Part shown: in pieces, positions 12,232 through 31,208 of the stretch
How positions within the stretch are numbered: the stretch's first letter is position 1
Layout of the letters: each line of letters begins with the position of its first letter
Source: Candidatus Dormiibacterota bacterium
GTDB taxonomy: Bacteria; Chloroflexota; Dormibacteria; Dormibacterales; Dormibacteraceae
Assembly: GCA_955652675.1 (NCBI GenBank)
Contig: CATPBP010000142.1
Span: forward strand, 1-32,383
Direction: 5' to 3'
Length of the DNA stretch: 32,383 nt
Program-made: the position numbers and the translations under genes
Notes under the pieces: model-generated
Databases searched by the model: none
What the model was told of the DNA's origin: nothing
The model's input: only the letters and a program-made list of their open reading frames with translations

Positions 12232-13554
12232 TCAGGCGCGCCTGGCGGCTTCTCGGAGGACTAGGGAGGACTGATAGGCGGTCGCTGGAGCCGCTCCGGG
12301 GTCGTCGATTATGTCGTAGTGGTCTCCGTTGTCCTTTGCGTAGCCGCGTAGCGGGTCGTTCTCGGCCTCGGGGAAGTTCCTGGTCGGCGCCGGCTGCACC
12401 CTTCCCACCAGCCGCCAGAAGATCCAGCCGGCCGAGTTGGGATCGTTCGCGACCCCCTCCAGCCAGCTCCGGTAGACGTTCGGCTGCTCCAGCTGCTGAG
12501 AGCTGTAGCCGAACTCCTGCAGCACCACCGGCTTGCCGGCCGCCGCGGCCGTCTCGCCGTGACGGCGGATCAGGTCGCCGACCTGTGGGAGCGTGACGCC
12601 ACGGTAGCCGGCGTACAGATGCCAGCTGGCGAAGTCGAGCCCGGGCAGCGCCGCCTCCGTCGCGGGATCGATCATCTCCTGGCGCCCGTAGAAGCCGTCG
12701 CCTCCGGAGGTCAGGAGGTGGCGGGAATCGATCGACTTCACGTGCGCCGCCATCTCCCGGAGCCAGCTCTCCGCCAGGGGCGCGCCGTCGGCGGCGCGGG
12801 CGGTGTTGTCGATCTGGGGCTCGTTCATCAGGTCCCAGGCGAAGATCGTGGGGTCGTCCTTGTACTTGACGCCCGTGATGGTGTTGGTCCGGTTCAGGAC
12901 GTGGGCCACCCAGCTCTTGTAGACCTCCTTGGGAGCCGGGTCGCTGAAGAAGAAGGTGCGCAGCCGGGGATCCGATTTCGGGTCGTAGCCCGGCAGGAAC
13001 CACGACGCTATCTGCTGGGCGCCACCCTCCCACTGCCAGAAATCGAGCAGGGACAGGTTGAGCTTGAGACCCAGCCGGCCGGCCCGATAGAGGACGTAGT
13101 CCCACCTGCCCAGCCCGTTCACGGTGCTGTCGTTCCAGGCCCAGGTGTTGCGCCGGCTGTCCCAGTAGAGCAGGTAGACCCCGTGCACGTCGTTGGCCGA
13201 ATCCTCGCGGCCGTGCCAGTCCCAAAGGGGAGGTTTCGTCTTGCCGTCCAGGGACCCTGCGACGCAGCTCATGATCGAGCGCACCACGTTGAAGCCCATA
13301 CTGTGGGCAGTGGTGAGGACGTCGTCGACCTCGCGGCGGGCTGCCCAGCCGAGATAGTGGTTGTTGGCTCCCGCCACATTGAAGTTCTGGGCGCCGAGCT
13401 TGAACCTCGTCCCCGACGTGGTGACGAAGAGACCCTTCTGCGTCTGGGGGATGGCCTGGCCGGTACCGCAGGCCGAAAGGGCCGAGATCGCCCCGCCGGA
13501 GGCGGCGCCGGCCCCGACCAGGGCAGATAGCCTCAGGAACTCGCGCCGCGTCAT
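12232..13554 (-). CDS. Tat-exported lipoprotein glycoside hydrolase, GH5-like
   Basis: A 440-residue protein. The N-terminus has a twin-arginine signal (TRREFLRLSALVG) followed by a lipobox-like ISALSAC with Cys29, so it is exported folded and probably lipid-anchored. The (beta/alpha)8 catalytic domain has WDLMNEP with acid/base Glu245 and VVLQEFGY with nucleophile Glu347, the arrangement of GH5 beta-mannanases and related endo-glycanases. It is the last gene of the nine-gene operon; its ATG overlaps the preceding stop as ATGA. In that context it may trim or release the glycan made by the operon, or act in uptake. The polysaccharide substrate is not determined. Confidence 0.9.
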   Translation of the reverse strand: MTRREFLRLSALVGAGAASGGAISALSACGTGQAIPQTQKGLFVTTSGTRFKLGAQNFNVAGANNHYLGWAARREVDDVLTTAHSMGFNVVRSIMSCVAGSLDGKTKPPLWDWHGREDSANDVHGVYLLYWDSRRNTWAWNDSTVNGLGRWDYVLYRAGRLGLKLNLSLLDFWQWEGGAQQIASWFLPGYDPKSDPRLRTFFFSDPAPKEVYKSWVAHVLNRTNTITGVKYKDDPTIFAWDLMNEPQIDNTARAADGAPLAESWLREMAAHVKSIDSRHLLTSGGDGFYGRQEMIDPATEAALPGLDFASWHLYAGYRGVTLPQVGDLIRRHGETAAAAGKPVVLQEFGYSSQQLEQPNVYRSWLEGVANDPNSAGWIFWRLVGRVQPAPTRNFPEAENDPLRGYAKDNGDHYDIIDDPGAAPATAYQSSLVLREAARRA

Positions 13555-14486
13555 GCCCGGGAGGGCAACCGGGCGGACGCGTTGCCGAGCAGGAATCCGG
13601 CCGCCGCTGCCGCCACTCCCGCGATGATGGCGGCGCCCCTGAGGAGACCTCCGAGCTGAAGCCGGCGCGCGCCCTGGAGGGCGTCCAAAGCGGCGCTGCG
13701 GGGCAGCGTGCGCAGCACGTGCCTCCGTTCTGCCTGGGTGGCGTCCCGGCCTCCCACAAAAGACGCCAGCTTTGCCTTGGAGAGCCCCTCGCCGAAGCAG
13801 CGAGAGACGTAGTAACGCACGCGTGCACGTTCGCGCGATACATGGTGGGATATGCGGGCCAGCGGCTCATAGACGATCTTCTGTTCGGGCCAGCGCTGGC
13901 GCATCCGGATGCAGAGCTCGGTCTCCTCGCAGCCGACCGGCCTGGTGCCGACCCGGCCCATGTCCTCTCGAAAGCCACCCACCTCTCTGACCAGGTCGGT
14001 GCGGAATGCCATGTTGTTTCCGATCACGTTTCGGACCTCCGCGGCGGCCTCCGGCAGACCGCGGTAGCTGCCGCCGACCACCCAGTCGAACTCGACCGGG
14101 AACCAGTCTGGCCTGCCGACTTCCCAGATCGACTCGGTTCTGCCGCCCACTGCCATCACCGCCGGGTCCGAGAAGTGAGCCAGCAGCCGGGCGATCCAGT
14201 CCGGTCTGGCCGCGGCGTCGTCGTCCAGGAAGGCCACCAGCTCGCCCCGGCAGGCCTCGAGCGCCTGGTTCCGGGTCCCGGAGAGCCCGGGCGTCCTGCC
14301 GCTCTCGATCAAGACGACTCCGGGCAGGGCGTCGCGCAGCTGCCCGAGAAGCTCTGGGCTGTGATCGACGACCACGATCACCTCCAGCGGCTCGAAGGTC
14401 TGCTGCCGCAGCGAGCGCACGGCGGCCAGGAGCAGGGCCGACCGAGCCTTGCTGTAGGTGGAGATGACGACGGAGACACCGCTCAC
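13551..14486 (-). CDS. Glycosyltransferase family 2
   Basis: A 311-residue GT-A fold transferase. VSVVISTYSKARSALLLAAV opens the nucleotide-sugar domain, ESGRTPGLSGTRNQAL follows, and the metal-binding DDD is at residues 88-90 (FLDDDAAARPDW). A GCEETELCIRMRQ segment supplies the acidic ED-type residues of the acceptor side. A hydrophobic stretch near the C-terminus (about 282-303) may tether it to the membrane. It overlaps both neighbours by 4 bp (ATGA), as eighth of nine genes. The role is probably adding one sugar to the lipid-linked glycan; donor and acceptor are unknown. Confidence 0.92.
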   Translation of the reverse strand: MSGVSVVISTYSKARSALLLAAVRSLRQQTFEPLEVIVVVDHSPELLGQLRDALPGVVLIESGRTPGLSGTRNQALEACRGELVAFLDDDAAARPDWIARLLAHFSDPAVMAVGGRTESIWEVGRPDWFPVEFDWVVGGSYRGLPEAAAEVRNVIGNNMAFRTDLVREVGGFREDMGRVGTRPVGCEETELCIRMRQRWPEQKIVYEPLARISHHVSRERARVRYYVSRCFGEGLSKAKLASFVGGRDATQAERRHVLRTLPRSAALDALQGARRLQLGGLLRGAAIIAGVAAAAAGFLLGNASARLPSRA

Positions 14487-15778
14487 AGCGCCCGCTCCGC
14501 CTCCGGGACGACGACGGCAGCGTCGGTCGAGGTGTCGGGCGCTCCCTGGCTGAGCAGGGAGGCGTACATGGCTTCGATGTCCGGCACGACGCGGCTGGTT
14601 GTGAAGCTGCGCGCCCGGCTCCGAGCCTCGGCACCCAGCCGGCGCCGCAGATCGGGGTCGTCGAGAAGGAGCTTCAGGGCATCGTGGAGCTGGGCCGCGT
14701 CACCCGGGCGCACCATCAGGCCGCTCTCCCGGTCGGCCACTATGTCCTTGATCCCTCCCGTCGAGGTGGCGACGAGGGGGCTGCCGGCGGTCATGGCCTC
14801 GAGAACGACAAGCCCGAAGGGCTCCGGCCAGACCGAGGGAGCGACTGCCGCCAGGCAGCGGCGAAAGGCGTCCATCACCACGGGGTGCGGGCAGCCGGCC
14901 AGGACCCTGACGCCCTCCGGAAGCGTTTCCGGGGTGTCCTTGCAGCGCCGTCCCATCATCACCAGCGGCGGCCTGCGACCCAGCCGGGTGTAGGCCTCGA
15001 GCAGCACGTGGACGCCCTTGTCGCGGCTCAGGTCTCCGACGAAGAGCAGGAAGGGCTCAGCCGGCAGGCGATCGTCCAGCGGCTCTCCGACCAGGGGCTC
15101 TCCAGACCGCTCCCACAGGGAGTCCGGGATGAAGTTCGGGATCACCCGCACGGGGACACGAGTCTTGGGGGAAGAGAGACCGTTGCCTTTGGCCACCGCC
15201 GAGCTGACCGCGATCACGGCGTCCAGCGCGCGCTCCTTGAGGCGCGCTGCGGGCGCGGTGCTCAGGGCGGTTACGGTGCCGGCCGCCGGGCCGTAGTGCT
15301 GGGCGGCGCAGCTGACGCACTTCAGGAGGCCCGGTCCGCTGCAGGGGACTCCCTCGCGCATCAGGCGCTTGACCGCGCAGACGTGGCTGTAGTCGTGGAG
15401 CGTCAGGACCATGCGCGCCTTGGTCCAGGGCCGCAGCGGCAGCAGCGAGTTGACGATCCAGTTGTGAGCGTGGATGACATCAGGCTTCTCCGCCCTGACG
15501 ACGCCGGCAAGACCCGCGACCAGCTCCGGATCCGGTGTCGGCGAGGCATGCGGGCGCCCGCCGTCGCTGTAGATCATCGGCAGGCGCTGGGCGGTGGTCC
15601 GCAGGCGGTGGACCCTGACGCCGTCCTCGATCCGGGTGCCGAAGCTGTCCGGCGAACCGATCGTCGCCACCGAAACGGTGTGGCCGCGGGCGGTCAGCGC
15701 CTGGGCCAGCGTGGCCACGTGGCGCTCCTCGCCGCCGATCACCGGCGGGTAGAACTGGCTGAGCATGAGGATCCTCAC
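14483..15778 (-). CDS. Glycosyltransferase family 4
   Basis: A 431-residue GT-B fold enzyme. The N-terminal domain starts MRILMLSQFYPPVIGGEERH with the glycine loop, and DVIHAHNW and TLHDYSHVCAVKRLM follow. The C-terminal nucleotide domain contains FVGDLSRDKGVHVLL and the EX7E motif Glu319-Glu327 (EPFGLVVLE). A cysteine group (CSGPGLLKCVSCAAQH, residues 146-161) is common in one GT4 subgroup and may bind a metal. The GTG start at 15778 overlaps the preceding stop as GTGA; the longer open frame upstream is antisense-like noise. Confidence 0.93.
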   Translation of the reverse strand: MRILMLSQFYPPVIGGEERHVATLAQALTARGHTVSVATIGSPDSFGTRIEDGVRVHRLRTTAQRLPMIYSDGGRPHASPTPDPELVAGLAGVVRAEKPDVIHAHNWIVNSLLPLRPWTKARMVLTLHDYSHVCAVKRLMREGVPCSGPGLLKCVSCAAQHYGPAAGTVTALSTAPAARLKERALDAVIAVSSAVAKGNGLSSPKTRVPVRVIPNFIPDSLWERSGEPLVGEPLDDRLPAEPFLLFVGDLSRDKGVHVLLEAYTRLGRRPPLVMMGRRCKDTPETLPEGVRVLAGCPHPVVMDAFRRCLAAVAPSVWPEPFGLVVLEAMTAGSPLVATSTGGIKDIVADRESGLMVRPGDAAQLHDALKLLLDDPDLRRRLGAEARSRARSFTTSRVVPDIEAMYASLLSQGAPDTSTDAAVVVPEAERAL

Positions 15779-18234
15779 TGCGGGCACACCTCGGGCCGGC
15801 GCCGAAGTCCCTCGTAGAGTGCGGCCAGCTGATCGACGCAGGCTTGCCAGTTCGGCAGCCTGACGGCCGCCTTCGGGGCCGGCCGCCGGAGCTGGTCCAG
15901 CATGGCGCGGCCGATCTCCTGGTCGGAGCAGCTGAGCGGCACCTCGCCGGCGAGGCCCTGCTCGGCCAGCTCGTGAAGGCCTGAGTTCTGGGCGACCAGC
16001 ACCCGGCGGCCCATCCCGACGGCCTCCATCACGGAGACCGGGTGTGCCTCGTACTCGCTCAGCAGCGTGACCAGGTGAGAGCGTCCGATCAGCTCCGCCA
16101 GCTCTTCCCGGCGATCGGGCGGGAAGCTGGCGAAGTGGATGCTCGCAGCGGCGGGGCCGGCGGCGGCCTGGCGCCTCAGGTGTTCCTCGTCGGGTCCCGC
16201 ACCCACCACGTAGAGCTGCGCCGCCGGACACGCCTGGAGGACCGTGTCCATCGCCGCGATCACCCGCCGGTGGCCCTTGTAACGCTCCAGCCGGCCGATG
16301 GAGAGGATCACGGGAGGGCCGGACGGATCGCCGTCCGAGCTCTTCTTCCGCCCCGGCATCTCGAAGCCGTTGCGGATGACCCGGAACCGGTCGCGGGAAA
16401 GGCCGAGGGACTTGCCGAAGAGCTCCGCCTCGTACTCGCAGACCGCCACCAGCCCACGGGCCTGGGTCAGGAGGGGGCGCAGCAGCCGCCACTGCAGCGG
16501 GCGAATGGCGCTACGCAGCCGGGAGGAGTGCCCACCGGTGTGGAACGTGACCACGTAAGGGAGGCCACGCCGCCGGGCCGCCGCCATCACCATCGGCGCC
16601 ACCAGGGTGTGGACGCCCTGGACGTGGACCAGGTCCCAGGGCCCCTTCGCAACCGCCGAGCGCAGGCCGGGTGCGAACTGCAGGTCGCCAAGCCAGGACC
16701 AGGCCCGGCGGCGCCGGACCACCACTCCGTCACGCTTCTCCCAGGCGGGCAGCCGCCGGGTGCTGTCCGCGGTGAGGACCGTGACCTCCACGTCGCGGGC
16801 GGCCAGCCGGGTGGCCACCTCGTGGACGTGGGTCTCGATGCCGCCGGTGAAGGGGTGGTAGCGAGGCGTCACCATGGCAACCCGAAGGGGGCGCCGTGCC
16901 GGGCCCCCGGCGGGCTCCGAGACGTGCTCCAGAGGGCCGGCCTGGTCGAGCCGCGGCGGCTGCTCAGGCCTGGCCCGAGCGGCTCTTACCACGCTGGGCA
17001 GGACCATGGCGGCCTGCAGGCAAGCCGCCACCAGCCATCCGGCCGCGGCGCCGCTGACCCCGCCATGGAGGACTCCGAAGGTCACCAGCCCGAGCTCGAG
17101 CAGGCCTCCCGCCACGCAGTACACGATGCCGGTGCCGAGGCGGTCCCAGATCCGGACCAGCGCGACGTAGTGCAGCTTGATCACCTGCGGGAAGACCGAC
17201 AAGCCTAGTAGGAGAAGAGCAGTCTGTGACCCCAGTGCGTAGTTCGGTCCGAACAGCCGGAGCACCGTGCCGCCCAGAAGGAAGCAGGAGGCGCTGGCGA
17301 GCACGCCCCAGCCAAGCGAAAGCAGGAGGCTGAGACGAAGCGGCCTGGCCAGCGGCTGCGACGGCTTGGCGGCGACCGAGTAGAGGACCATGCTCAGCGC
17401 GATGGGGCCCACGAAGACGAAGCCGGCCACCGTCCAGGCAAGGTAGAAGTAGGCGTTCGCCGTCGCCGAGAGGAGCACCGTCACGATCAGCGGCAATATC
17501 CAGTTGGGGGCGGCGAGCCCCAGGTTGAAGAGGTGGTGCGCGAGTGCCGTGAGGCGGAGGCCGCGCAGCAGCCGGAGCTTGGGCAGGGCCAGGACGGCGC
17601 GGCCACGCAGGCCCAAGACCAGGGCCGCGAGCACCAGCAGCGAAACCGTCTGCCCGACGCACCAGGTCGCGTAGATCGCCGAGGCGCTTCGGTCGGTCAG
17701 ATAGATTCCGGCCGCGAATAGGGCGGCCAGCTTGGCCAGCGCGAAGACGGCGCTGCGCAGGAAGAGCAGATCTCCGCGCAGGAGACCGATCAGGGCCTGG
17801 TCGAGGACCAGCGTGAGGGCGCTCAGGCTCACGCCGGCTGCGAACAGGAGGATGGCGGTCGCGCCGCTTCCCGGCAGCCCCAGACCGTCGTGGAGCCGGC
17901 CGGTGACCAGCTGCCAGAGGCCGCCCAGGACCAGCCCCACGATGCCGACCGCAAGCAGCGCGGTGATGAGCAGCGCGGCCTTCTGCTCGTTGCCGCCGGC
18001 CAGCCTGGGCACGAGCGCGGTGCCGAAACCGATGGTGCCCACGAACCCGAGCAGCGTCATGGCGCTGATCACCGCGCCGGCCAGGCCGACGGAGGCGATC
18101 GGGAACTGGTGCGCTGCCAGCCACCAGTAGGCGGCCCCCAGCCCCGAGGTGACCGCGGTGGAGGCCACGATCGATCCGGAGTTGAAGGTCATGGCGATCG
18201 TGGAGGCCGCGACCTTGCCCAGGCGGTGCTTCAA
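15775..18234 (-). CDS. Flippase-GT4 glycosyltransferase fusion protein
   Basis: An 819-residue two-part protein. Residues 1-420 are a multi-spanning (about 12 helices) polysaccharide-flippase-like domain of the MOP/Wzx type. Residues 421-449 are a Pro/Gly/Arg linker. Residues 450-819 form a GT4 transferase: RVAMVTPRYHPFTGGIETHV, LSIGRLERYKGHRRVI, and EX7E at Glu729-Glu737. The frame is continuous with no stop. The start is TTG at 18234, overlapping the previous stop as TTGA, in the same style as the neighbouring junctions. Wzx flippases move lipid-linked glycans across the membrane. Fusion to a transferase suggests that the last cytoplasmic sugar is added at the transporter itself. Confidence 0.87.
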   Translation of the reverse strand: MKHRLGKVAASTIAMTFNSGSIVASTAVTSGLGAAYWWLAAHQFPIASVGLAGAVISAMTLLGFVGTIGFGTALVPRLAGGNEQKAALLITALLAVGIVGLVLGGLWQLVTGRLHDGLGLPGSGATAILLFAAGVSLSALTLVLDQALIGLLRGDLLFLRSAVFALAKLAALFAAGIYLTDRSASAIYATWCVGQTVSLLVLAALVLGLRGRAVLALPKLRLLRGLRLTALAHHLFNLGLAAPNWILPLIVTVLLSATANAYFYLAWTVAGFVFVGPIALSMVLYSVAAKPSQPLARPLRLSLLLSLGWGVLASASCFLLGGTVLRLFGPNYALGSQTALLLLGLSVFPQVIKLHYVALVRIWDRLGTGIVYCVAGGLLELGLVTFGVLHGGVSGAAAGWLVAACLQAAMVLPSVVRAARARPEQPPRLDQAGPLEHVSEPAGGPARRPLRVAMVTPRYHPFTGGIETHVHEVATRLAARDVEVTVLTADSTRRLPAWEKRDGVVVRRRRAWSWLGDLQFAPGLRSAVAKGPWDLVHVQGVHTLVAPMVMAAARRRGLPYVVTFHTGGHSSRLRSAIRPLQWRLLRPLLTQARGLVAVCEYEAELFGKSLGLSRDRFRVIRNGFEMPGRKKSSDGDPSGPPVILSIGRLERYKGHRRVIAAMDTVLQACPAAQLYVVGAGPDEEHLRRQAAAGPAAASIHFASFPPDRREELAELIGRSHLVTLLSEYEAHPVSVMEAVGMGRRVLVAQNSGLHELAEQGLAGEVPLSCSDQEIGRAMLDQLRRPAPKAAVRLPNWQACVDQLAALYEGLRRRPEVCPQ

Positions 18235-19070
18235 GCGGTGTTCGCCCCCGTCGAGAGCTGCACCTTGCGGTACACCGTCGTGGGATGGTCCGAGCGGTAC
18301 ACGACCAGCTCGGTCACTCCCTGCCCCCGAGACTGGGGAAGGCTCAGCTTGGTGGACCACTGTTGCCCCGGCTCGAGCCGGACGTCCCGCCACTCGTTGA
18401 CTGGACGCTTGTCCACGGTCAGCTGCAGGCGGTAGGTCTCCGCCTGGAGCTCGTCGTTCTCGAGTCCGATGTCGACCACTCCGGCCTTCGCGTCCTGCAT
18501 GTGGATCCAGGACTGCGTGAAGCCGGTGCCTCGCGGTCGCAGGGCGCTGTGCGCGGAGTAGGCGACGGCCGACGCCACGATCGCCACGGCGACCCCGAAG
18601 AGGAGCGCGTGGCGCCACTTGAAAGATGCGAACGGCCGCGGGGCTCCGCCCGCTCCCGGCTCGGTGCGGCCACCGCGCGCCCGGAGATCACGGAGGAGCA
18701 CCGCGACGATGGCGACCAGGGCCACCAGCCCGAGCAGGAGGGTCTGCTGACCGCCGCCGATGCCGAGCGGAGTCCAGTCCAGCAGGAGGGCGCTGAGCGC
18801 CGCCAGCGCCAGGCTGATCCCGATCGAGAGCACGGCGCGTTCCGGGGCGCCCAGCTGGTGCCGGCCCCAGAGAAGGGCGGTCAGCGCGTAGCCGGGAATG
18901 ACCAGGATGAGGGGAAGCCCGAAGAGCGTTCGCAGAGGCACGCTGCCGTCCGCGAGCACGATCACGGCGAGGGCGACCTCAACGAAGGCGCCCAGGGCCA
19001 GCCACCACCAGGTGGCATGGCGGGCACTGGAGCTGGTGCCCGGCGGGACCGTCCGGATGTTGACGCTCAT
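18231..19070 (-). CDS. DUF1616-like membrane protein
   Basis: A 279-residue protein. The N-terminal half holds four membrane helices with PLRTLFGLPLILVIPGYALT, the signature region of DUF1616. One further helix (around residue 155) precedes an extracytoplasmic beta-rich domain of ~110 residues (QSWIHMQDAKAGVVDIGL to the end). DUF1616 proteins are often found in surface-polysaccharide loci of bacteria and archaea, with no proven function. Both junctions are 4 bp overlaps. It could help the adjacent GT-C protein or anchor the assembly. Confidence 0.8.
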   Translation of the reverse strand: MSVNIRTVPPGTSSSARHATWWWLALGAFVEVALAVIVLADGSVPLRTLFGLPLILVIPGYALTALLWGRHQLGAPERAVLSIGISLALAALSALLLDWTPLGIGGGQQTLLLGLVALVAIVAVLLRDLRARGGRTEPGAGGAPRPFASFKWRHALLFGVAVAIVASAVAYSAHSALRPRGTGFTQSWIHMQDAKAGVVDIGLENDELQAETYRLQLTVDKRPVNEWRDVRLEPGQQWSTKLSLPQSRGQGVTELVVYRSDHPTTVYRKVQLSTGANTA

Positions 19071-20959
19071 CGGAGAAGACCTCCCAGGTCGTAGATGCGG
19101 ATGTCCCCGTTGTCGTAGATGCGGCTGGCGCCGGGGAGGGAGTCGAACTTGTCAAGCCACGAGGGCGGAATCGGGCGCCCGGCCGGCTGGGTGGCGGGCT
19201 CGCCGTCCTCGAAATACACGCCGATCAAGGGCCTGGCGGTGCCGAGGCGGCGGTCGACCAGGATGTAGCGGACCTGGCCCTGGCGAAGGAGCGCCAGCTC
19301 GCCGTCGGAGAACGTCGGTGAGAGCTCGAGGGGGGCGGTGGCGACCCCGTCGTTGAAGTAGGTGACGGGGTCCTGGTAGCCGTAGCTGCCGAGCAGGTTG
19401 CGATTGGTAACGTCGGCCACGAACCGGTTGCGGTTGCCGAGGTGGTCGCCGGTCCAGGTTGCGGCCGAGACGCCGACGGGGTCCACCGACCGGCCGTCGG
19501 CGCCGACCAGGTAGGGTCCGGGCAGTTGCTGGGAGGGCTGCCAGCCCACTATCACGCCGCCCAGGAACACGACTGACAGCCAGGTCGCCAGCAGGACCGA
19601 TCGCGCCCGGCCCCGTGCCCGCTCGGGCCAGACCCGGTCGATCGAGAAGGCGATGACGCCGGCGACCCCAAGGAAGACGAAGGGGGACGTCCGGGCCGCG
19701 AACCCAGCTCCACCGGGCGCCAGGTGCAGCCCCAGACTGCCCACGTAGGCCAGTGCCGCGAGCGCCAGAACCCAGATCGCGGCGTGGCGGCGCCTCTGCT
19801 TCCAGGCAGCGATCGCTCCCAGCGGCAGCGTGAGCACCACCAGGACGGCCGAGCCCAGTCCGAGGAGCTGCCAGGCGAGCGGTGTGGTCAGGCCGTTGGA
19901 GGCCTGGAACAGGTGCCGGCTGGCTGACCGGTACTGCAGGAGGTCGGCCGCGTCCTGGGCCGCCTGCAGCAGGTCCCCCGAGAGGTAGTCCAGCGTCCGG
20001 CGCCCCGCCACCGCGAACCAGAGCACGTCCGCGACCAGCACCACCAGCGTCAGAGCCAGCAGCCCCCGGTTGTCTCGGCCAGAGCGGCCGAGGAGGGCTG
20101 AAGCGATGAGCCAGACGCTGAGGAAGGCGAGCAGGGCCAGGGCGGTGACGTGATGCGTGAGGGCGAGCGCCAGGGCCACCGGCGCCGCGATCAGAAGCGA
20201 TCCCACCCGGGGCGCCGTACTGCTGGATCGGCGCGCGGCGAGGAAGAGGACGGCGGCCGCCAGCCCCAGTGCCATCGACTCGTAGGCGAACTGGCTGTCA
20301 AAGAACACGAAGCCGGGGTTGGCGATGTAGACCGCGGTTCCGGCGGCGGCCCTCCTGGAGGTCCCGGTCGCCTGCTCCAGGAACAGGTAGAGGGCAAGGA
20401 CCATGAGCAGCTTGGCCGTTCTCACCACCAGCTGGGCGGCCACGACGGCCGGAAGGCCGGTGGCACCGATCAGCGCGGCGGTCGCCGACTCCAGGCCCGG
20501 GTAATAGGCGCTGATCCCGAGCAGTGGGTTGGGGCCGAAGAGGTGGCCGCTGCGCTCCAGCTCGATCAGGCTCCGCCAGTGCATCAGCTCGTCGTAGTAG
20601 GTGAGCGCCGCCGGCTGCATCAGCACCTTGACCAGGGAGAGGAGAACTGCCAGCGCCGCGAGCAGGGCGATCCGCTCCTGGCGCGAAGCGCCCGGGGCGA
20701 GCGCCCGGAGGGCGAGCGGCACGTAGGTGACCAGCAGTCCCGCGAAGAACAGGAGCTGTGCGCCGGGCACCGAGTCCCGCGCCAGATCGTCCGCCAGGGC
20801 CACCAGCAGCACTCCCGCCGCCCCGACCACCAGCAGGGGGAAGAACAGGCCCCACTCGGCCGCCTTCTCGGTGGTCTGCGCGTCGGCTCGGGTGCCGGTG
20901 CCCTGATGGGCAGGGGTCCGAGCGGGAAGAGCCGGCTGCAGATGCCGTCCGGTCAGCAC
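19067..20959 (-). CDS. Multi-spanning GT-C-like glycosyltransferase
   Basis: A 630-residue integral membrane protein with about 12 hydrophobic segments and a soluble C-terminal ~120-residue domain. After the second or third helix, an extracytoplasmic loop holds YYDELMHW (Asp123-Glu124), the position and form of the catalytic acidic motif of GT-C transferases such as ArnT/PMT, which use polyprenyl-phosphate sugars. The start is GTG at 20959 with GGGAGG 4 nt upstream. It overlaps the NRPS end by 7 bp. Directly following a DPM1-like domain, which would make the polyprenyl-phosphate sugar, it is the natural consumer. The GT-C assignment is moderately sure. Confidence 0.78.
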   Translation of the reverse strand: MLTGRHLQPALPARTPAHQGTGTRADAQTTEKAAEWGLFFPLLVVGAAGVLLVALADDLARDSVPGAQLLFFAGLLVTYVPLALRALAPGASRQERIALLAALAVLLSLVKVLMQPAALTYYDELMHWRSLIELERSGHLFGPNPLLGISAYYPGLESATAALIGATGLPAVVAAQLVVRTAKLLMVLALYLFLEQATGTSRRAAAGTAVYIANPGFVFFDSQFAYESMALGLAAAVLFLAARRSSSTAPRVGSLLIAAPVALALALTHHVTALALLAFLSVWLIASALLGRSGRDNRGLLALTLVVLVADVLWFAVAGRRTLDYLSGDLLQAAQDAADLLQYRSASRHLFQASNGLTTPLAWQLLGLGSAVLVVLTLPLGAIAAWKQRRRHAAIWVLALAALAYVGSLGLHLAPGGAGFAARTSPFVFLGVAGVIAFSIDRVWPERARGRARSVLLATWLSVVFLGGVIVGWQPSQQLPGPYLVGADGRSVDPVGVSAATWTGDHLGNRNRFVADVTNRNLLGSYGYQDPVTYFNDGVATAPLELSPTFSDGELALLRQGQVRYILVDRRLGTARPLIGVYFEDGEPATQPAGRPIPPSWLDKFDSLPGASRIYDNGDIRIYDLGGLLR

Positions 20960-23900
20960 GCTTCCTCCCTCCAGGCGGAGGCCGTGGTCCTGGCGGCCAG
21001 CGCTGCCGGCGGCCTGGCCGGCGGCAGGCTCGGGCCCCAGACCTCGCGCGAAGGCTGGCCCCGGCGCGGGTCGCGGCGAAGGCGCTCGGCGACGACCGTC
21101 TTCAGGACCCGCCAGCCGTCCGGCACCGCTCGCAGGCTGCTGCTGCCGGTTATCCGTACGCGCTCGAAGCTCGGTACCTCGAAGACCTTGAGACCCCGGG
21201 CCAGGGCCCGAGTGTTCAGCTGTGCCTCGATTTCGAAGCCCGGCGCCTCCGGCTGCAGCACTGGCAGCACCCGCCGCCAGAAGGCCGTGTAGCCGTAGCA
21301 GAGGTCGGAGAAGCGGTTCCGGTAGAGGAGCCGCACCACTGTGGTGAGCGCCAGGTTGCCCAGCGAGCGGAAGAGCGAGAGGTCGGCGCTGCCGCCGCCC
21401 TGGATGTAGCGCGACCCTCTCACGAAGTCCGCGCCGCCCTGCAGGGCGCCCACGAAGAGAGGGATCTCGGCCGGGTCCGTCGATCCGTCCGCGTCCAGGG
21501 CCACGACGATGTCGCCGGTGGCGGCCTCGAATCCCTGACAGAGGGCATCGCCCTTCCCTTTGCCGTCCTGGCGGATGGTCGTGATGCCTGGCCAGAGCTC
21601 GCGGGCGACTCGCACTGTGTCGTCCGTCGAGTTGCCGTCGACCAGGATCAGCTCATCCACCCAGTGCGGGATGCGGGGCAGGACGTGGGGCAGGTTTGCC
21701 GCTTCGTTGCGCGCCGGAATGACGACGCTGACGCGGTAGCTCGCAACCGTCTCGGAGGCGGATGCAGGCCTCAGAAGCGAGCCTCCCGGAACGGCAGGCC
21801 CGATTCCCACCGGGCGGCCGGGGCCTCCCGGGGCACCGCGGCCCGAGTCCGGTAGGACCGCCTCGAGGCGGGTCGTGAAGCGGGCGGCGAGCTCGTTGAC
21901 GTGAGGCTCCTGGAGCACGGAGTTGTGGTCGCCGGGCACGATCTCGACGCCGATCTGGCCGGCGTGAAGGCGGCGCCAGCCGAGCGACGCTTCGCGGGCC
22001 CAGCGCTGGTACCAGTGGCTGCCGATGACCGTCAGGGGTGCGTCGCAGGCGCGCATCCGGTGATCCCGGATCGCCGAAGCAGCTCCCTCCAGGTCGACGG
22101 CGGCGGTCTCCGGGGAGGCGCCGGCGCCGATTCCGAGGAGGCGGCGGAGTCTGGCGCGGAGCGCTGCCGGCCAGCGCCGGGGATCCGTCATGAGCTTCTC
22201 GCGGAGCCGGCCTCGCACGGTGTCGGAGTCCTCGATCAGACGGAGCGAGATGTCCGGCGCCATGGTGTCGAGCAGGCCCAGGAAGGCGACTTCCTCTCCC
22301 TCCTCCCGGAGACGGCAGGCGATCTCGTAGGCGATCAGACCGCCGAGGCAGAAGCCGGCGAGCCTGTAGGGTCCGTGCGGCTGCTCGGCACGGAGAGCGT
22401 GCAGCAGCTCGCCGGCCATGGAGTCCAGGCCCCTCCCGGCGTCGAACCTCCCCTCCTCGGTGCGAGGCACGATGGCCGTGACCGGCTGGTCCTCGTCGAG
22501 GCGGTTCAGAAAGTGGCGGAGCGCCAGCAGCCCGTTCTGGTCCGGCTGGATCACGAAGAGCGTCGCCATCGACCCGGCTGTGCGGACCGGGACCACCAGC
22601 GGGGAGGCCGGTGAGGTCGGGGCCGCCGGTGCCTCGGACTCCTCGAGCAGGCTCGCCAGTCCGGCGATGGTGGAGCCCTGCTGGAAGATCGCCGAGAGCG
22701 GCACCGAGCGGTCGAACCGCCTGCCCACCTCGGCCATCAGCCGCACCGCGAGCAGCGAGTGCCCGCCCAGTGCGAAGAAGTCGTCCTGCCTGCTCACCTC
22801 TTTCAGACCCAGGACATCCGCCCAGATTTCGGTCAGATCCGCCTCGACCTGCGAACGTGGTCTCTCTCCAGCCGCCGGCTGACTGGAGCGCGGCTCGGGG
22901 AGCGAGCCGCGGTCGAGCTTGCCGTTGGGCGTGCGCGGAAGCGCGTCCAGGCTCAAGAAGGCGGAGGGCACCATGTAGTCCGGAAGGCGCGTGCGAAGCC
23001 GGGCGCGCAGCTGGTCGGTGTCCGGCGCTGCGCCTTCGGCGGACACCAGGTACGCCGCCAGGCGGGGGTCGCCGGGCGAGAACTCGTGGCTGACAACAAC
23101 CGTCTCGCGGATCGCGGGATCTTCGAGTAGCACAGCTTCGATCTCACCGGGTTCGATGCGGTAGCCGCGCACCTTGACCTGCTGGTCGATGCGGCCCAGG
23201 TGCTCGACCTCGCCGGTGGCGAGCATTCGGACCAGGTCCCCGGTCCGGTAGAGGCGGTCCCCGCCTCCCGGGGCGAAGGGGTCCTGGATGAAACGCTCTG
23301 CGGTCAGCTCCGAACGTCCCAGGTATCCCCGGGTGACGCCGGCGCCGCCGATCCAGAGCTCACCCGGGACGCCGAGCGGCAGCCGGCTTCCATTCCGGTC
23401 AACCACGTGGAGCCGGGTGTTGGGAATCGGGCGGCCGATGGTGATCCGCTCTCCCCTCTCGACCTTCGCGAGGGTCGAATAGATCGTGGTCTCGGTCGGG
23501 CCGTAGCCGTTCCAGACCGCCTCGCAGCGCTCGAGCAGCCGATCGGCCAGGTCGGGCGGCAGCGGCTCTCCGCCGCTGAGGGCACGCAGCCCCGGGGCTC
23601 CCTTCCAGCCGCTTTCGATGAGCAGCCGCCAGCTGCTGGGAGTGGCCTGAAGCAGGGTGGCGCCGGAGCGGCTGATCAGGGCGGCCAGCTCCTCGGGATC
23701 AGAGGCGGCTCGTTGGCCGCCTATCAGCAGCCGGCCGCCGGTCGCCAGCGGCAAGAAGAGCTCCAGGACGGAGATGTCAAAGGAAAGCGTGGTGACCGCG
23801 AGCAGAAGGTCGTCGGGGCCGAAGTCGAGGGTTGAGGCGAACGTCTCGACCACGTTGACGGCGCCGCGGTGAGGTACCTGGACGCCCTTGGGCCTGCCCG

Positions 23901-25881
23901 TGGAACCTGAGGTGTAGATCACGTAGGCGAGGTCGTCGGGCGAGGCCACGCCGTCAGGGCGAGATGCTGGAAGGCGGGCCAGCTGCTCCTCCTCTTCGTC
24001 CAGGCACAGCGTCTGGACGGCTGGGTTCTGCTGGGACCCCGCAAGGGGGAGGGAGACGATCAGATCTGACTGTGTCACCACGATGCTGGTCTGGGAGTCC
24101 TCGATCATCAACGCCAGGCGATCGTGGGGATGGTTCGGGTCGAGAGGCAGGTAGGGCGCGCCGGCCTTGAGGGTGGCCAGCACCGCGACCACCATCTCCA
24201 GGCCTCGCTCCAGGCAGATCGCGACCGGCCGGTCGGTCTCGGCACCCAGGTCACGGAGGCGGTGGGCGAGCCGGTTGGCTCGCTCGTCGAGCTCTCGGTA
24301 GCCGAGCTGCAAGCCCTCGAACTCGGCGGCCACCGCGTTGGGGCGGCCCGCGGCCTGGCGCTCCACCAACTGGTCGAGGGAGACCGCGGGGATCTCCGCC
24401 TGGTTCGAGTTCCAGGCGTCAAGCCGGGCGGTCTCCGCCTCGGTCAGCATGGGCAGCTCGGAGATCGGTCGCTCCGGATCGGCGACGGCCGCTTCCAGCA
24501 GGGTCTGGAAGTGCCCAGCCAAGCGCTCGATGGTCTCGCCGTCGAAGAGGTCGCTGTTGTAGGTCAGGCGGCCGGCGAGACCGGCCTGGCGCTCGATGAG
24601 CTCCACCGAAAGGTCGAGCTTCGCAGCCCCGTTGTCGACGGCGTTCTGGAGGACGTCCCAACCGGCCGGCAGCTGCGGCACCGGCGGCTGCAGCGTGAAG
24701 AGGACGTCGAAGAGCGGATTGCGGCTTGGATCCCGCTGCGGCTGCAGCTCCTGCACCAGACGCTCGAAGGGCAGGTCGTCGTTCGCCAGCGCCGTCAGAG
24801 CCACCTCGCGCACGCGACCGAGCAGAGCGCGGAAGCTGGGGTCGCCCGAGAGGTCTGTGCGAAGCGGCACGCTGTTCTGGAGGTAGCCGAGCATGCCGTC
24901 GAGCTCGGGCAGCTTGCGGCCGGAGCTCACGGTGCCCACGACCAGGTCGTCCTGGCCGCTGTACCTGTGCAGCGCCACCTTGAACGCCGCCACGGCTCCC
25001 ATGAAGAGCGATGCGCCCTCCTCGCGGCCGAGCCGCCTGAGACCGTCCGCAGCCTGACGCGAGACCGCGACCGGCCGGTAGCCGCCGCGAAAGGTCTGCA
25101 TCGAGGCCCGGGGACGATCGGTGGGCAGCTGAAGAGTGGGAAGGCCGCGCAGCTGCTCGCGAAGGCTGTCGAGCTGCGCCTGCGCCTCGGGCCCTTCGGA
25201 CCAGTTCCGCTGCCAGATCGCGTAGTCGGGGTACTGGATCGGAAGCTCGGCGAGCGGGGAGGTCCTGCCCTGGCTGAAAGCCTCGTAGAGCGTGGTGAGC
25301 TCCGCCACCAGCAACTGGTCCACCGATACCCCGTCGAAGATGGCGTGGTGCAGGGTCAGGTGCAGGCGATGTCCGAGGCCGCCGAGGTCGAAGAGAGTCC
25401 CCCGCCAGAGCGGGCCGGCCCCGAGGTCGAAGGGCCGGCGGGCGTCCTGTTCGGCCAGGCGCCTCGCCTCCACCCCCCGGTCATCCTCGGGCAGCCCGGC
25501 CAGGTCTACCTGCCGCAGGCGATGGATCTGGGGAGGCAGCACCACCTGCAGCAGGCGGCCGCCGTCCTCTCGGAAGACGGTGCGCCACGCCTCGTGCCGT
25601 CGCAGGACCTCGTCGAAGGCGCGCTGCAGCGCCTCCACGTCGAGGTTCGGCGGGCACTGTATGGCCATCGACTCGTTGTAGGCAGTGGTCCCCGGGACCA
25701 GCTGGGAAAGGAACCAGAGCTGCTCCTGGCCGTACGAGGCCGGCGTGGGGACGCCGGCGTGGCGGACCGGGATCGCCTGACGCGTGCCGGGCGACTTGAG
25801 CTGCCGGTGCAGCTGCTTTTCCAGCAGCGCCCGCTTGGCGGGTGAGAGCTCGAGCGTGTCAGCGGTCTGGAGGTCTTTCAT
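20953..25881 (-). CDS. NRPS (C-A-T-TE) fused to a DPM1-like GT2 glycosyltransferase
   Basis: A 1642-residue protein. Condensation domain at about 45-480, with HHAIFDG at 178-184. Adenylation at 500-995: YTSGSTGRPKG 656-666, NGYGPTETT, YRTGDL and NGKLDR. Carrier domain with LGGHSLL and phosphopantetheine Ser1042. Thioesterase at about 1090-1345, with GFCLGG where Cys1178 replaces the usual serine; Asp1205 and His1319 complete a likely triad. After a Gly/Pro linker, residues 1382-1605 are a polyprenyl-phosphate-sugar synthase-like GT2 (VSVVIPARNEAANLP, VDGNSTDDT, DAD at 1463-1465, GSRYIQGG), with no C-terminal membrane helices. The A-domain pocket reads DILQLGGIY plus Lys, close to a glycine code. 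The ATG overlaps the P450 stop by 1 bp (TGATG). Each domain is certain; why they are joined is unknown. Confidence 0.93.
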   Translation of the reverse strand: MKDLQTADTLELSPAKRALLEKQLHRQLKSPGTRQAIPVRHAGVPTPASYGQEQLWFLSQLVPGTTAYNESMAIQCPPNLDVEALQRAFDEVLRRHEAWRTVFREDGGRLLQVVLPPQIHRLRQVDLAGLPEDDRGVEARRLAEQDARRPFDLGAGPLWRGTLFDLGGLGHRLHLTLHHAIFDGVSVDQLLVAELTTLYEAFSQGRTSPLAELPIQYPDYAIWQRNWSEGPEAQAQLDSLREQLRGLPTLQLPTDRPRASMQTFRGGYRPVAVSRQAADGLRRLGREEGASLFMGAVAAFKVALHRYSGQDDLVVGTVSSGRKLPELDGMLGYLQNSVPLRTDLSGDPSFRALLGRVREVALTALANDDLPFERLVQELQPQRDPSRNPLFDVLFTLQPPVPQLPAGWDVLQNAVDNGAAKLDLSVELIERQAGLAGRLTYNSDLFDGETIERLAGHFQTLLEAAVADPERPISELPMLTEAETARLDAWNSNQAEIPAVSLDQLVERQAAGRPNAVAAEFEGLQLGYRELDERANRLAHRLRDLGAETDRPVAICLERGLEMVVAVLATLKAGAPYLPLDPNHPHDRLALMIEDSQTSIVVTQSDLIVSLPLAGSQQNPAVQTLCLDEEEEQLARLPASRPDGVASPDDLAYVIYTSGSTGRPKGVQVPHRGAVNVVETFASTLDFGPDDLLLAVTTLSFDISVLELFLPLATGGRLLIGGQRAASDPEELAALISRSGATLLQATPSSWRLLIESGWKGAPGLRALSGGEPLPPDLADRLLERCEAVWNGYGPTETTIYSTLAKVERGERITIGRPIPNTRLHVVDRNGSRLPLGVPGELWIGGAGVTRGYLGRSELTAERFIQDPFAPGGGDRLYRTGDLVRMLATGEVEHLGRIDQQVKVRGYRIEPGEIEAVLLEDPAIRETVVVSHEFSPGDPRLAAYLVSAEGAAPDTDQLRARLRTRLPDYMVPSAFLSLDALPRTPNGKLDRGSLPEPRSSQPAAGERPRSQVEADLTEIWADVLGLKEVSRQDDFFALGGHSLLAVRLMAEVGRRFDRSVPLSAIFQQGSTIAGLASLLEESEAPAAPTSPASPLVVPVRTAGSMATLFVIQPDQNGLLALRHFLNRLDEDQPVTAIVPRTEEGRFDAGRGLDSMAGELLHALRAEQPHGPYRLAGFCLGGLIAYEIACRLREEGEEVAFLGLLDTMAPDISLRLIEDSDTVRGRLREKLMTDPRRWPAALRARLRRLLGIGAGASPETAAVDLEGAASAIRDHRMRACDAPLTVIGSHWYQRWAREASLGWRRLHAGQIGVEIVPGDHNSVLQEPHVNELAARFTTRLEAVLPDSGRGAPGGPGRPVGIGPAVPGGSLLRPASASETVASYRVSVVIPARNEAANLPHVLPRIPHWVDELILVDGNSTDDTVRVARELWPGITTIRQDGKGKGDALCQGFEAATGDIVVALDADGSTDPAEIPLFVGALQGGADFVRGSRYIQGGGSADLSLFRSLGNLALTTVVRLLYRNRFSDLCYGYTAFWRRVLPVLQPEAPGFEIEAQLNTRALARGLKVFEVPSFERVRITGSSSLRAVPDGWRVLKTVVAERLRRDPRRGQPSREVWGPSLPPARPPAALAARTTASAWREEAC

Positions 25882-27095
25882 CAGAAGGTCACCGGTAGGG
25901 CTGAAAGGCCGCGAAAACCGAGGTTGTCGCGCCAGGCGAGCGGGGTGTCTTGGTTCAGGTGTAGTCGCGGCATCCGGCGCAGCAGCGTCCGGAAGGTGAC
26001 GCGACCCTGCAGCCGAGCCAGCGGCGCGCCGAAGCAGAAGTGCGCACCCCAGCCGAAGGCCACGTGCCGGTTGTCCTGCCGGCGGAGGTCCAGGCGGGCC
26101 GGCTCAGGGAAGTGGTCCGGGTCTCGGTTGGCGGCGCCAAGCATGGTGATGACCGACTGACCGGCGCCGATGGTGCGGCCGCCGAGCTCGGTGTCCTCGG
26201 GCGCCGTGCGGATGGTGTGCTGGCTCGGGCTCTCGTAGCGGAGCAGCTCCTCCACGGCGGAGGCGCCCAACGAGGGGTCATCCCTCAGCGCCGCGAGCTG
26301 ATCGGGGTTGCGGAGGAGGGTGAGAATGCCGTTCCCGATCAGGTTGGTGGGGGCCTCGAGGCCGCCCGCCGTGCACAGGATCAGGTTGGCGACGATCTCC
26401 TCCTCGGTCAGCCGGTCGCCCTTGGCGTCGGCCCTCGCGAAGGCGTCCACCAGGCCTTCGCGGGGGCTCTCCGACTGGCGCCGGACCTGATCGCCGAAGT
26501 AGGCAGACATCTCGTCCAGGGAGCGCCGCACGGCGGCCACCCGATCCGGGTTGTACTGGAAGTTGCCGAGGACGCTGCCGAAGTCGGCAGCCCACCTGAT
26601 CAAGAGAGGCCAGTCCTCGACCGGCACCCCGAGCAGCTCCGCCATCACGATGGACGGCAGCGGCCGGCCGAGGTCGGCGATGACGTCCATCGCGCCCCGC
26701 TCCTGAGCCTCGTCCAGGAGTCCGTCGACGATCTCCTGGATGTGGCTCTCGAGCTGCTCCACACGCCGAGGCGTGAAGGCGCGGGAGGCCAGCGTGCGGA
26801 CGCGCATGTGGACCGAGGGGTCGAGGAAGCGCATCTGACGAACCATCACGGTCAGGATCGGAGCCATGTCTTCCATCCCCATCGCGCTCAGCTCCTCGGG
26901 TGTGTGCTTGAGGGTGGCCGAATAGCGCTGCAGGGCATGGACGACGTCGTCGTAGCGCGTGACCACCCAACCTCGGAGGTAGGGATCCCAGTGGACCGGG
27001 TCCTCGCTGCGCAGCAGGTCGTAGAGGGGGTAGGGGTCGGCCAGCACCTCTTGCTCGAAGAGGCGGTTGAGGCTCAGCTCGGTGGCGGACTTCAT
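25881..27095 (-). CDS. Cytochrome P450, probably acting on a carrier-bound amino acid
   Basis: A 404-residue P450. K-helix ExxR is E283-R286; the haem loop FGWGAHFCFG has Cys354. The I-helix reads AGGLEAPTN (243-251), so the usual Thr after the acidic residue is Ala248. Natural P450s with this change exist (P450eryF), in which the substrate helps deliver protons. The gene sits between an A-T didomain gene and the NRPS, overlapping both. In novobiocin and nikkomycin clusters an A-T protein plus a P450 beta-hydroxylates a tethered amino acid, so this role is inferred. Redox partners are not in the window. Confidence 0.92.
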   Translation of the reverse strand: MKSATELSLNRLFEQEVLADPYPLYDLLRSEDPVHWDPYLRGWVVTRYDDVVHALQRYSATLKHTPEELSAMGMEDMAPILTVMVRQMRFLDPSVHMRVRTLASRAFTPRRVEQLESHIQEIVDGLLDEAQERGAMDVIADLGRPLPSIVMAELLGVPVEDWPLLIRWAADFGSVLGNFQYNPDRVAAVRRSLDEMSAYFGDQVRRQSESPREGLVDAFARADAKGDRLTEEEIVANLILCTAGGLEAPTNLIGNGILTLLRNPDQLAALRDDPSLGASAVEELLRYESPSQHTIRTAPEDTELGGRTIGAGQSVITMLGAANRDPDHFPEPARLDLRRQDNRHVAFGWGAHFCFGAPLARLQGRVTFRTLLRRMPRLHLNQDTPLAWRDNLGFRGLSALPVTF

Positions 27096-28951
27096 AGGAG
27101 GAGCCCCTTGGCCTCCTCTTCGCTCATCGTCTCCAGCCGGGCGATCAGCAGCCCCTCCACGAGGGTGGAGATGCCTTCGATCGTGCGGGCGTTGAAGAGG
27201 TTCCGAAGCGGGACCTCGACCCCGTAGTCCTCGCGGATGCGGGCGATGATCTGGGTAGCCAGCAGGGAGTGGCCCCCGAGAAGGAAGAAGTCCTGGTCGA
27301 TGCCGACCTGCTCGAGCTCGAGCAGGCCGGCCACGATCTCAACCAATCTCTCCTCGACGGGGGTCCGGGGGGGTGCGAGCTCTCCTTCCGAGGCAACTCG
27401 CGGTTCCGGTAGTGCTTCGCGATCGAGCTTCCCGTTGACGGTCAGCGGGAGCGACTCTATATGCGTGAAGGTGGCGGGGATCATGAAGGCGGGAAGCCGC
27501 TCTTCAAGGAAGGACCGAAGCTCGGCGGCAGGCGGACGCGTGCCCTCGATGGGGACGACGTAGGCGTTGAGCCGCCGCTCGTTCCCATCCTCGCTCACGG
27601 TCAGGACCGCGGAGCGAACGAGGGGATGCTCGTCCAGGACCGCCACGACCTCGTCCAGCTCGACCCGACTGCCGCGGATCTTGACCTGGTTGTCGAGCCG
27701 GCCGAGGAACTCGATCTCGCCATCCCAGCGCATCCGCACGAGGTCGCCGGTCCGGTAGAGCCGGGCCTCGGGGCGATCGGCGTAACGGTCTGCGATGAAG
27801 CGCTCGGCGGTGAGGTCCGGCCGGTTGCGGTAGCCACGGGCCAGGCTGGCGCCGCCTACGAAGAGCTCACCCACCTGGCCCTCGGGGACAGGCTGGAGCT
27901 CCTCGTCGAGCACCCGGACGTACGCGCCGGGGATCGGACGCCCGATCGTGGGCAGGCGATCACCGCGCAGCTCCCGGGGCACCACGCCCGAGCTGGTGAC
28001 GACCGTGTTCTCGGTCGGGCCGTAGTTGTTGACCAGGTCGAAGGGCAGGCCGGCCGGAGTGAAGCGATGCAGGACGTCGCCGCCCGTGTGCAGGTAGCGC
28101 AGGGCGGTGCCGGCGGGCCACTGCTGATCCAGGATGGCCTCCGCCAGGACCGTGGGCAGGAAAGCGCTGGTGATGCGCTTCTCGACCAGCCAGTCGCGCA
28201 TCCGGTCGGCTGAGAGCCGGACCTCATCGGGCGGTACGTGGACGCTGGCGCCAGTGCTCAGGTAGGGCCAGAGCTCGTTGACCGCCGGATCGAAGGCCGG
28301 GCTGATGGCCTGAGTGCCCCTGTCCTGGGCTGTGATCTCGAAGGCGTCGCGGTGCCAGGCACAGAGGTTGAGAAGACCTCGATGGGTGACCTCCACGCCC
28401 TTCGGCCGTCCGGTCGAACCGGAGGTGTAGATGACGTAGGCCAGGTCGTCCACCGCCGGACGATGTACTGGCGGAGCCGGTTCCATCCGCCCCGCGGGCG
28501 CGATCGACGTCAGCACCATCGGCTGCCATGGCCCTTGCGGCAGCCGGGCCGCCAGGTCCTGTGTCGTGAGGACGACCGGGCAGCCGGCGTCCTCGAGCAT
28601 GAAGGCGACCCGGTCAGCCGGATAGTCGGGGTCCAGCGGCAGGTATGCGCCCCCGGCCCTCATGATGCCGAGCGCTCCCGCCACCAATCGCGCCGACCGC
28701 GGGAGGAAGACACCGACGACGACCTCTCGGTCGACGCCGCGAGCGCGGAGGACGCGGGCGATGGAGGCTGCCCAGCGGTCCAGATCGCTGTAGCTGAGCG
28801 ACATCTCCGGGTCGGTGACCGCAACCGCATCGGGATGGGCCGCGGCGAGCTGTTCCACGAGCTCGGGAACTGTCGAACCGATGACACTTTCGGGGGACGC
28901 GTCGACTGACGCACGAGTGGGCATGGAGAACGTCTCCACGGTCTGGCTCAC
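27092..28951 (-). CDS. NRPS adenylation-thiolation (A-T) didomain protein
   Basis: A 619-residue stand-alone loading protein. The adenylation domain spans about 25-515: YTSGSTGRPKG at 175-185, NNYGPTENT, YRTGDLVR 399-406 and NGKLDR 506-511. A carrier domain follows, with LGGHSLL and phosphopantetheine Ser562. There is no condensation domain. Pocket residues in the standard order read D-P-N-F-H-G-N-V-V plus the C-terminal Lys (Asp221, Pro222, Asn225), a combination I cannot match to an amino acid. The start is GTG at 28951 with AAGGAG at 28962-28967; an upstream GTG at 29014 has no ribosome site. It is the first gene of the nine-gene operon and its stop overlaps the P450 ATG (ATGA). Confidence 0.92.
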   Translation of the reverse strand: MSQTVETFSMPTRASVDASPESVIGSTVPELVEQLAAAHPDAVAVTDPEMSLSYSDLDRWAASIARVLRARGVDREVVVGVFLPRSARLVAGALGIMRAGGAYLPLDPDYPADRVAFMLEDAGCPVVLTTQDLAARLPQGPWQPMVLTSIAPAGRMEPAPPVHRPAVDDLAYVIYTSGSTGRPKGVEVTHRGLLNLCAWHRDAFEITAQDRGTQAISPAFDPAVNELWPYLSTGASVHVPPDEVRLSADRMRDWLVEKRITSAFLPTVLAEAILDQQWPAGTALRYLHTGGDVLHRFTPAGLPFDLVNNYGPTENTVVTSSGVVPRELRGDRLPTIGRPIPGAYVRVLDEELQPVPEGQVGELFVGGASLARGYRNRPDLTAERFIADRYADRPEARLYRTGDLVRMRWDGEIEFLGRLDNQVKIRGSRVELDEVVAVLDEHPLVRSAVLTVSEDGNERRLNAYVVPIEGTRPPAAELRSFLEERLPAFMIPATFTHIESLPLTVNGKLDREALPEPRVASEGELAPPRTPVEERLVEIVAGLLELEQVGIDQDFFLLGGHSLLATQIIARIREDYGVEVPLRNLFNARTIEGISTLVEGLLIARLETMSEEEAKGLLL

Positions 28952-30991: not shown

Positions 30992-31111
30992 GTCCTCTCC
31001 ATCACCTGAAGCGGATAGGAATTCAGCGGAGAAACAGATACTCTCACCAGACTGACAGTGCCCGTCCACCGCCCCGCGGAGCCAAACATACAGTTCAGCG
31101 CCAGGTCCAAG

Positions 31112-31130: not shown

Positions 31131-31208
31131 CCGCGACGGGTTGCGTAGCTCAAGTTGGGGGAGGCCGGATGGCGGCGGTCACCTCATAAAAAGAAGGAGG
31201 GGGCGATC

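Follow-up and report, generated by a model that had tools for sequence, protein, structure and literature searches.

Non-ribosomal peptide synthetase genes and glycan-assembly genes in a nine-gene overlapping operon of a Dormibacteraceae genome (Chloroflexota)

Background

The Dlt system, which D-alanylates teichoic acids, provides an exported glycopolymer with an amino acid by way of an adenylation (A) domain and a carrier. In biffamycin biosynthesis a polyprenyl-phosphate-mannose synthase and a transferase are required and mannose is placed on a 3-hydroxy residue (PMC13285481), while for polyoxypeptin discrete A, peptidyl carrier, cytochrome P450 and thioesterase (TE) proteins make 3-hydroxyleucine (PMC3943440). 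Here we describe a locus that shares features with all of these. The window, by which we mean the whole stretch analysed, has 32,383 bases and is one entire contig (CATPBP010000142.1) of a draft Candidatus Dormiibacterota genome (4.2 Mb, 283 contigs, 92% complete), and it holds nine genes in which non-ribosomal peptide synthetase (NRPS) enzymes are combined with glycan assembly and export. We tentatively read them, at a little less than an even chance, as one operon whose single exported product would be a glycan, on the surface or extracellular, that carries an NRPS-made amino acid or dipeptide.

The biffamycin (BifO/BifP), ramoplanin (Ram29) and mannopeptimycin (MppH/I) clusters have, like the window, an NRPS next to which lies a polyprenyl-phosphate-sugar synthase and/or a glycosyltransferase (GT) of the GT-C type (PMC13285481, PMC4635501). 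However, the window operon adds three further GTs, a flippase, a DUF1616 protein and a mannanase-like glycoside hydrolase (GH5), its NRPS is merely bimodular, its GT2 is fused to the TE and its putative hydroxylase is a P450. Systems of the polyoxypeptin (PlyC/Q/R/S) and nikkomycin (NikQ) type likewise have an A-T (adenylation and carrier) loading unit with its own P450, and the likeness to polyoxypeptin extends to relatives of the window cassette, some with a stand-alone TE and with a Leu code in the 17 read (PMC3943440); in the window, by contrast, A and T form one protein, pocket and I-helix have diverged and glycan genes lie alongside. Three-component extracytoplasmic glycosylation (GT-A synthase, flippase, GT-C) shares with the window a DPM1-like GT2 and a GT-C enzyme, here in one operon with a putative flippase (PMC11127046, PMC8035078, PMC13390465), but the putative flippase of the window resembles Wzx/MATE proteins instead of GtrA and is joined to a GT4, and NRPS genes are added. 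The Dlt likeness lies in the pairing of an adenylation domain and a carrier with exported glycopolymer genes; condensation (C) and TE domains are however present, and Pfam finds no DltB (MBOAT) homologue among the nine genes. Nor does it find there the initiating phosphosugar transferase or Wzy of Wzx/Wzy clusters (the rest of the genome was not searched). Each part is known, and the full combination matched no system described in the open-access literature searched, in agreement with the initial annotation, which could name no matching cluster; searches of the same literature turned up no described system for NRPS plus exopolysaccharide loci in Chloroflexota or for DUF1616 clusters.

Operon architecture

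The nine genes run on the minus strand from 28951 down to 12232 and every frame is open over 16.7 kb. Their domain order, from Pfam together with fold or relatives, is A-T; P450; C-A-T-TE-GT2; GT-C; DUF1616; flippase-GT4; GT4; GT2; GH5 (Table 1). All eight junctions overlap, by 4, 1, 7, 4, 4, 4, 4 and 4 bp in the order of transcription, with ATGA and TGATG at the first two, the 7-bp overlap at the third, and then ATGA, TTGA, GTGA, GTGA and ATGA. Eight overlapping junctions out of eight make this a coupled operon. Genes in GC-rich operons frequently overlap by 1 or 4 bp, and the tightness alone is unremarkable.

The initial annotation had proposed this operon, and its coordinates, open frames and overlaps of 1-7 bp are all borne out; its gene list agrees with the domain calls and could be refined for the GT-C enzyme, the flippase half and the GH5 protein. 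It had also suggested that internal promoters would reveal independent units: scans of the block, weak at 70% GC, gave one promoter match against 0.6 expected and three terminator matches against 4.1 expected, and this absence of any excess offers no argument for separate units.

Table 1. Positions of the operon genes and of other features in the window
Feature	Position	Strand	Basis or remark
Gene 1, A-T didomain, loading module	27092..28951	-	AMP-binding, AMP-binding_C, PP-binding
Gene 2, cytochrome P450, diverged member of A-T-paired clade	25881..27095	-	p450 domain
Gene 3, NRPS part, C-A-T-TE	21850..25881	-	Pfam domains, HHAIFDG and LGGHSL motifs
Gene 3, C-terminal GT2, DPM1-like polyprenyl-phosphate-hexose synthase type	20953..21760	-	Glycos_transf_2, in frame behind TE
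Gene 4, predicted GT-C glycosyltransferase	19067..20959	-	Polytopic; Pfam gives just sub-threshold DUF6541
Gene 5, DUF1616 membrane protein	18231..19070	-	DUF1616, 2.2e-16
Gene 6, putative flippase of Wzx/MATE type (N-terminal half) joined to GT4 (C-terminal half)	15775..18234	-	GT4 domains and relatives
Gene 7, GT4 glycosyltransferase	14483..15778	-	Domain calls
Gene 8, GT2 glycosyltransferase, AglG-like	13551..14486	-	NF041394, 1e-61, under its cut-off
Gene 9, GH5 mannanase-like, predicted Tat-exported lipoprotein	12232..13554	-	Cellulase domain
NeuD/PglB/VioB-like hexapeptide-family sugar acyltransferase, divergent	29332..29961	+	TIGR03570, 5.4e-29, under its cut-off
Second P450 with TetR-type regulator upstream	100-1647 and 1344-1958	-	Unlinked to the operon
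Rhizopine-type substrate-binding protein	29975-31153	-	Tat signal; no adjoining transporter genes

The peptide genes and their relatives

The NRPS domains of the window are complete and their motifs intact, as expected of a member of the NRPS glycopeptide clusters: the C domain keeps HHxxxDG and the carrier LGGHSL. The P450 heme motif, the DAD of the GT2 and the NEP and EFG of the GH5 protein are intact as well. The A pocket of gene 3, DILQLGGIY, is glycine-like, resembling glycine codes such as DILQLGMIWK (PMC12283262), and its TE has a Cys as nucleophile (GFCLGG). A Cys at this site (GxC[NL]G) was found in nearly all TEs read, in the window and in relatives, but no such motif was seen in one genome (G157), in its stand-alone TE.

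The P450 of gene 2 is 58-63% identical to one copy each in 19 other Chloroflexota genomes, the next best being at most 50%, and this clade has 100/100 support in the tree. At least 17 of these genomes, and probably all 19, have an A-T didomain beside the P450, as the window does; we call the didomain plus this P450 clade module B. Four genomes (G267, G281, G157, G319) carry a reduced set of A-T, P450 and stand-alone TE. Where the A code of the relatives was read it is DAWFLGNVV (15/17) or DAWFLGNVL (2/17). DAWFLGNVVK is listed as one of the most frequent codes for Leu/Ile/Val (PMC12283262), and it is also found in the domains that activate Leu for the scytocyclamides, which contain 3-hydroxyleucine (PMC7524897).

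Gene 1 does not carry this Leu code, DAWFLGNVV(K): its pocket reads DPNFHGNVV(K), and we rejected it as a hydroxyleucine loader in this genome. The P450 keeps its heme motif (FGWGAHFCFG), and its I-helix reads GGLEAPTN where all 19 relatives have GGQETTTN. This joint change of pocket and I-helix, against all relatives, suggests a changed substrate, and since both have diverged hydroxyleucine cannot be assumed for the window. P450eryF has also lost the acid-alcohol Thr, and there the substrate's own hydroxyl assists. By analogy we hypothesize that the more polar pocket of gene 1 would fit a substrate bringing its own hydroxyl. From the lost I-helix Thr and the altered pocket, hydroxylation of the peptide appears less safe for the window than for its relatives.

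The same divergence might indicate a partly decayed or misassembled copy, with a changed P450 active site and with NRPS-GT2 and flippase-GT4 fusions produced by lost stops or assembly error. The long P450 branch, the EAP replacing ETT and a draft genome in 283 contigs would agree with it, but nine frames stay open over 16.7 kb with an overlap at every junction, and the heme Cys, carrier Ser, HHxxxDG, TE Cys, GT-C acidic pair and GH5 motifs are all kept, which makes such a copy very improbable.

The glycan genes and their relatives

In the PDB the C-terminal GT2 of gene 3 is matched best by dolichol-phosphate mannose synthase (5mlz, 1.4e-20), which identifies this tail as a polyprenyl-phosphate-sugar synthase at the family level only. 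Its counterpart in relatives is a separate gene, 50-62% identical. The sole candidate for an internal translation start of the tail, a GTG at residue 1358, has poor Shine-Dalgarno spacing as judged by eye, and a fusion was preferred.

Gene 4 is supported as a GT-C enzyme by its predicted fold. Its model (predicted local distance difference test, pLDDT, 79.5; predicted template modelling score, pTM, 0.81) gave 22 PDB matches at E<=1e-3 in a fold comparison, all 22 to GT-C enzymes, including oligosaccharyltransferases, AftA, DPY19 and ArnT, and the Asp-Glu pair D123 and E124 is invariant in an alignment with 15 relatives; a sequence-profile search of the PDB with the GT-C alignment returned no matches. 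The pairing of a DPM1-like GT2 with a GT-C enzyme, proposed in the initial annotation, is thus upheld by the match to 5mlz and by this fold. A DUF1616 protein neighbours the GT-C gene in most relatives. The N-terminal half of gene 6 (440 residues) is itself below the Pfam threshold, while three relatives about 38-42% identical to it match Polysacc_synt or MatE above cut-offs. For gene 9 the best PDB matches are GH5 endo-beta-mannanases (5.5e-47), and it has a twin-arginine signal (TRREFLRL) and a lipobox (LSAC); as this protein is mannanase-like, mannose is our best guess for at least one sugar. The divergent acyltransferase gene shares the upstream region of the operon, and its product might act on the same glycan.

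Of 400 Chloroflexota genomes sampled, 30 have relatives of gene 4. Around them lie a DPM1-like GT2 (hereafter GT2dpm), a gene 8-type GT2, gene 6- and gene 7-type GT4s, DUF1616 and a flippase, and we call this set, with the GT-C, module A. It also occurs in Actinomycetota and in two alphaproteobacteria (Roseomonas and Bradyrhizobium), the Bradyrhizobium locus including a GH5 relative. In four genomes (G306, G344, G319, G267) the GT-C is replaced by a polytopic protein with a poor model (pLDDT 42), which hhalign could align just weakly to the GT-C family (probability 6, E=0.006). An unnamed polytopic family stands at the GT-C position in Ktedonobacteria-type loci (L108:4782-6683, L080:7940-9835, L115:7675-9636, L156:10773-12782), with 46-49% identity between lineages and no Pfam match in the two tested.

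Co-location of the two modules

Module A genes lie within the fetched stretch in five of the 19 module B genomes (G306, G344, G319, G267, G101). As controls we took 20 P450 loci from the same genomes and 20 NRPS loci, of which none and one, respectively, had module A genes. The single positive control (G267:C46) has NRPS-TE, GT2dpm, GT2, flippase, polytopic protein and DUF1616-like gene in one tight run. A Fisher test of 5/19 against 1/40 gives p=0.011 (p=0.008 at the genus level), although somewhat more flanking sequence was taken for module B than for the controls and length alone gives p=0.036. G306, whose class was sampled completely in our collection (47 genomes), and G344 have much of the window's content in another order: A-T, P450, NRPS-TE, GT2dpm, GT2, flippase, polytopic protein, DUF1616-like and GT4. 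Elsewhere an A-T-TE is followed by GT2dpm (G080), and minimal versions free of a C domain (A-T, P450, stand-alone TE) adjoin glycan genes in G267 and G319, an arrangement in keeping with a role in providing a hydroxy amino acid and not a peptide antibiotic.

In the GT2dpm tree the NRPS-linked copies of G319, G267, G080, G306 and G344 form one group (91/96) and the window falls in a separate half (95/93), so that at least two label changes are forced. The placement of an NRPS-TE directly upstream of GT2dpm thus appears, from this tree, to have arisen at least twice, in the window as one protein. Two independent placements, one of them a fusion, are the best argument for a functional link. In the P450 clade tree the glycan-linked copies are not grouped (5 changes against 5.6 when shuffled), and co-location would then have been gained or lost repeatedly, or the tree is poorly resolved.

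The neighbourhood comparison proposed in the initial annotation therefore found the modules together in other Chloroflexota and not only apart. The link that it drew between NRPS and glycan genes holds as a recurrent genomic association beyond controls; it does not hold as a general rule, as the modules are apart in most genomes and neither strictly needs the other. This separation would agree with a single transcript that serves two products, one a polysaccharide and the other an independent hydroxy amino acid or dipeptide acting as signal, protectant or metallophore, the two being co-regulated for use at the same life stage. So would G101 and G319, where the modules are divergent or about 10 kb apart and do not form one operon. 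We consider such a pair of products doubtful, since co-regulation alone would hardly account for a TE fused to a GT2, or for the repeated placement of a TE directly next to GT2dpm across two or more lineages.

Further gene arrangements were seen. In G092 (L075:1350-9022) a large NRPS (2300 aa, Cys-type TE) and an Asp/Glu racemase lie beside a GT-C/DUF1616/flippase block, another NRPS-glycan pairing. In G101 (L062:14656-17762) the A-T/P450/NRPS genes are separated from the GT-C block by a GT2, a nucleotidyltransferase and a GHMP kinase (sugar activation). Related proteins near NRPS-glycan loci (L115:3418-4938, L107:9338-12746, L112:6051-7664) have no Pfam matches and are possibly glycosidases, several of them with lipoprotein-like signals.

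A possible single product

The overlapping junctions and the in-frame NRPS-TE-GT2 fusion count for a single exported product, for which the following route can be proposed. Gene 1 would load a first amino acid onto its own carrier, where gene 2 would oxidise it; gene 3 would condense it with a second one, chosen by the glycine-like pocket, and its Cys-type TE would release or hand over the (di)peptide. An oligosaccharide would be assembled on a lipid carrier by the C-terminal half of gene 6 and by genes 7 and 8, and flipped by the N-terminal half of gene 6. The GT2 tail of gene 3 would make a polyprenyl-phosphate hexose, mannose being the best guess, which the GT-C of gene 4 would use outside the membrane with gene 5 as partner, and gene 9 would trim the chain. 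The likely joining point is a hydroxyl or amino group of the peptide, and the candidate joiners are the TE fused to the GT2, or the GT-C acting on a hydroxylated residue (compare the biffamycin proposal, PMC13285481). The gene content with its order, overlaps and fusion is directly observed, as are the domain families, the GT-C fold of the model and the repeated co-location; we infer every substrate, the acceptor, the hydroxylation of the peptide, the lipid linkage of the saccharide and the covalent joining itself.

Several points weigh against this route. The strongest objection is that no recognisable peptide-glycan joining enzyme is present, neither MBOAT, ligase nor aminoacyltransferase being found among the nine genes. 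No initiating phosphosugar transferase or Wzy was found there either. Most module A loci have no NRPS gene, module B is without module A in 14 of the 19 genomes (some on short contigs), and the association statistic is moderate. The P450 of the window, finally, sits on a long branch and has lost the acid-alcohol Thr that is invariant in the 19 relatives.

An alternative is a small secreted glycopeptide, in which GT2dpm and GT-C would glycosylate a hydroxylated residue of a short NRPS peptide outside the membrane, as for biffamycin, ramoplanin and mannopeptimycin. The same trio of NRPS, polyprenyl-phosphate-sugar synthase and GT-C is present (PMC13285481, PMC4635501), the P450 adjoins the NRPS and the GT2 is fused to the TE. 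However, the same GT-C and GT2 families occur free of NRPS in most loci, so that their usual acceptor is probably something other than a peptide; a mono-glycosylated peptide would not require the three further GTs, the flippase and the glycosidase, and the operon has no dedicated peptide exporter or resistance gene. For these reasons the glycopeptide seems unlikely to us. The glycan carrying an NRPS-made unit, which we prefer, can be extended to a more specific proposal, quite improbable as a whole, namely a new glycan class in which a Cys-type TE, either next to a polyprenyl-phosphate-sugar synthase or fused with it, would pass a hydroxy-aminoacyl or dipeptidyl unit to a sugar carrier in the membrane ahead of export, the modules having been joined at least twice in Chloroflexota.

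Implications

The A-T/P450 cassette combines a conserved Leu specificity in relatives with a natural variant in pocket and P450 active site, and is useful for studies of carrier-bound hydroxylation. In the usual view NRPSs produce small molecules that diffuse, and exopolysaccharide pathways handle sugars only, a divide that a recurrent fused locus would test. Little is known of the chemistry of this phylum, and the locus would offer a concrete test of whether assembly-line peptides enter surface glycans and, if the proposed new class were true, NRPS chemistry would be written into the cell-surface polysaccharide.

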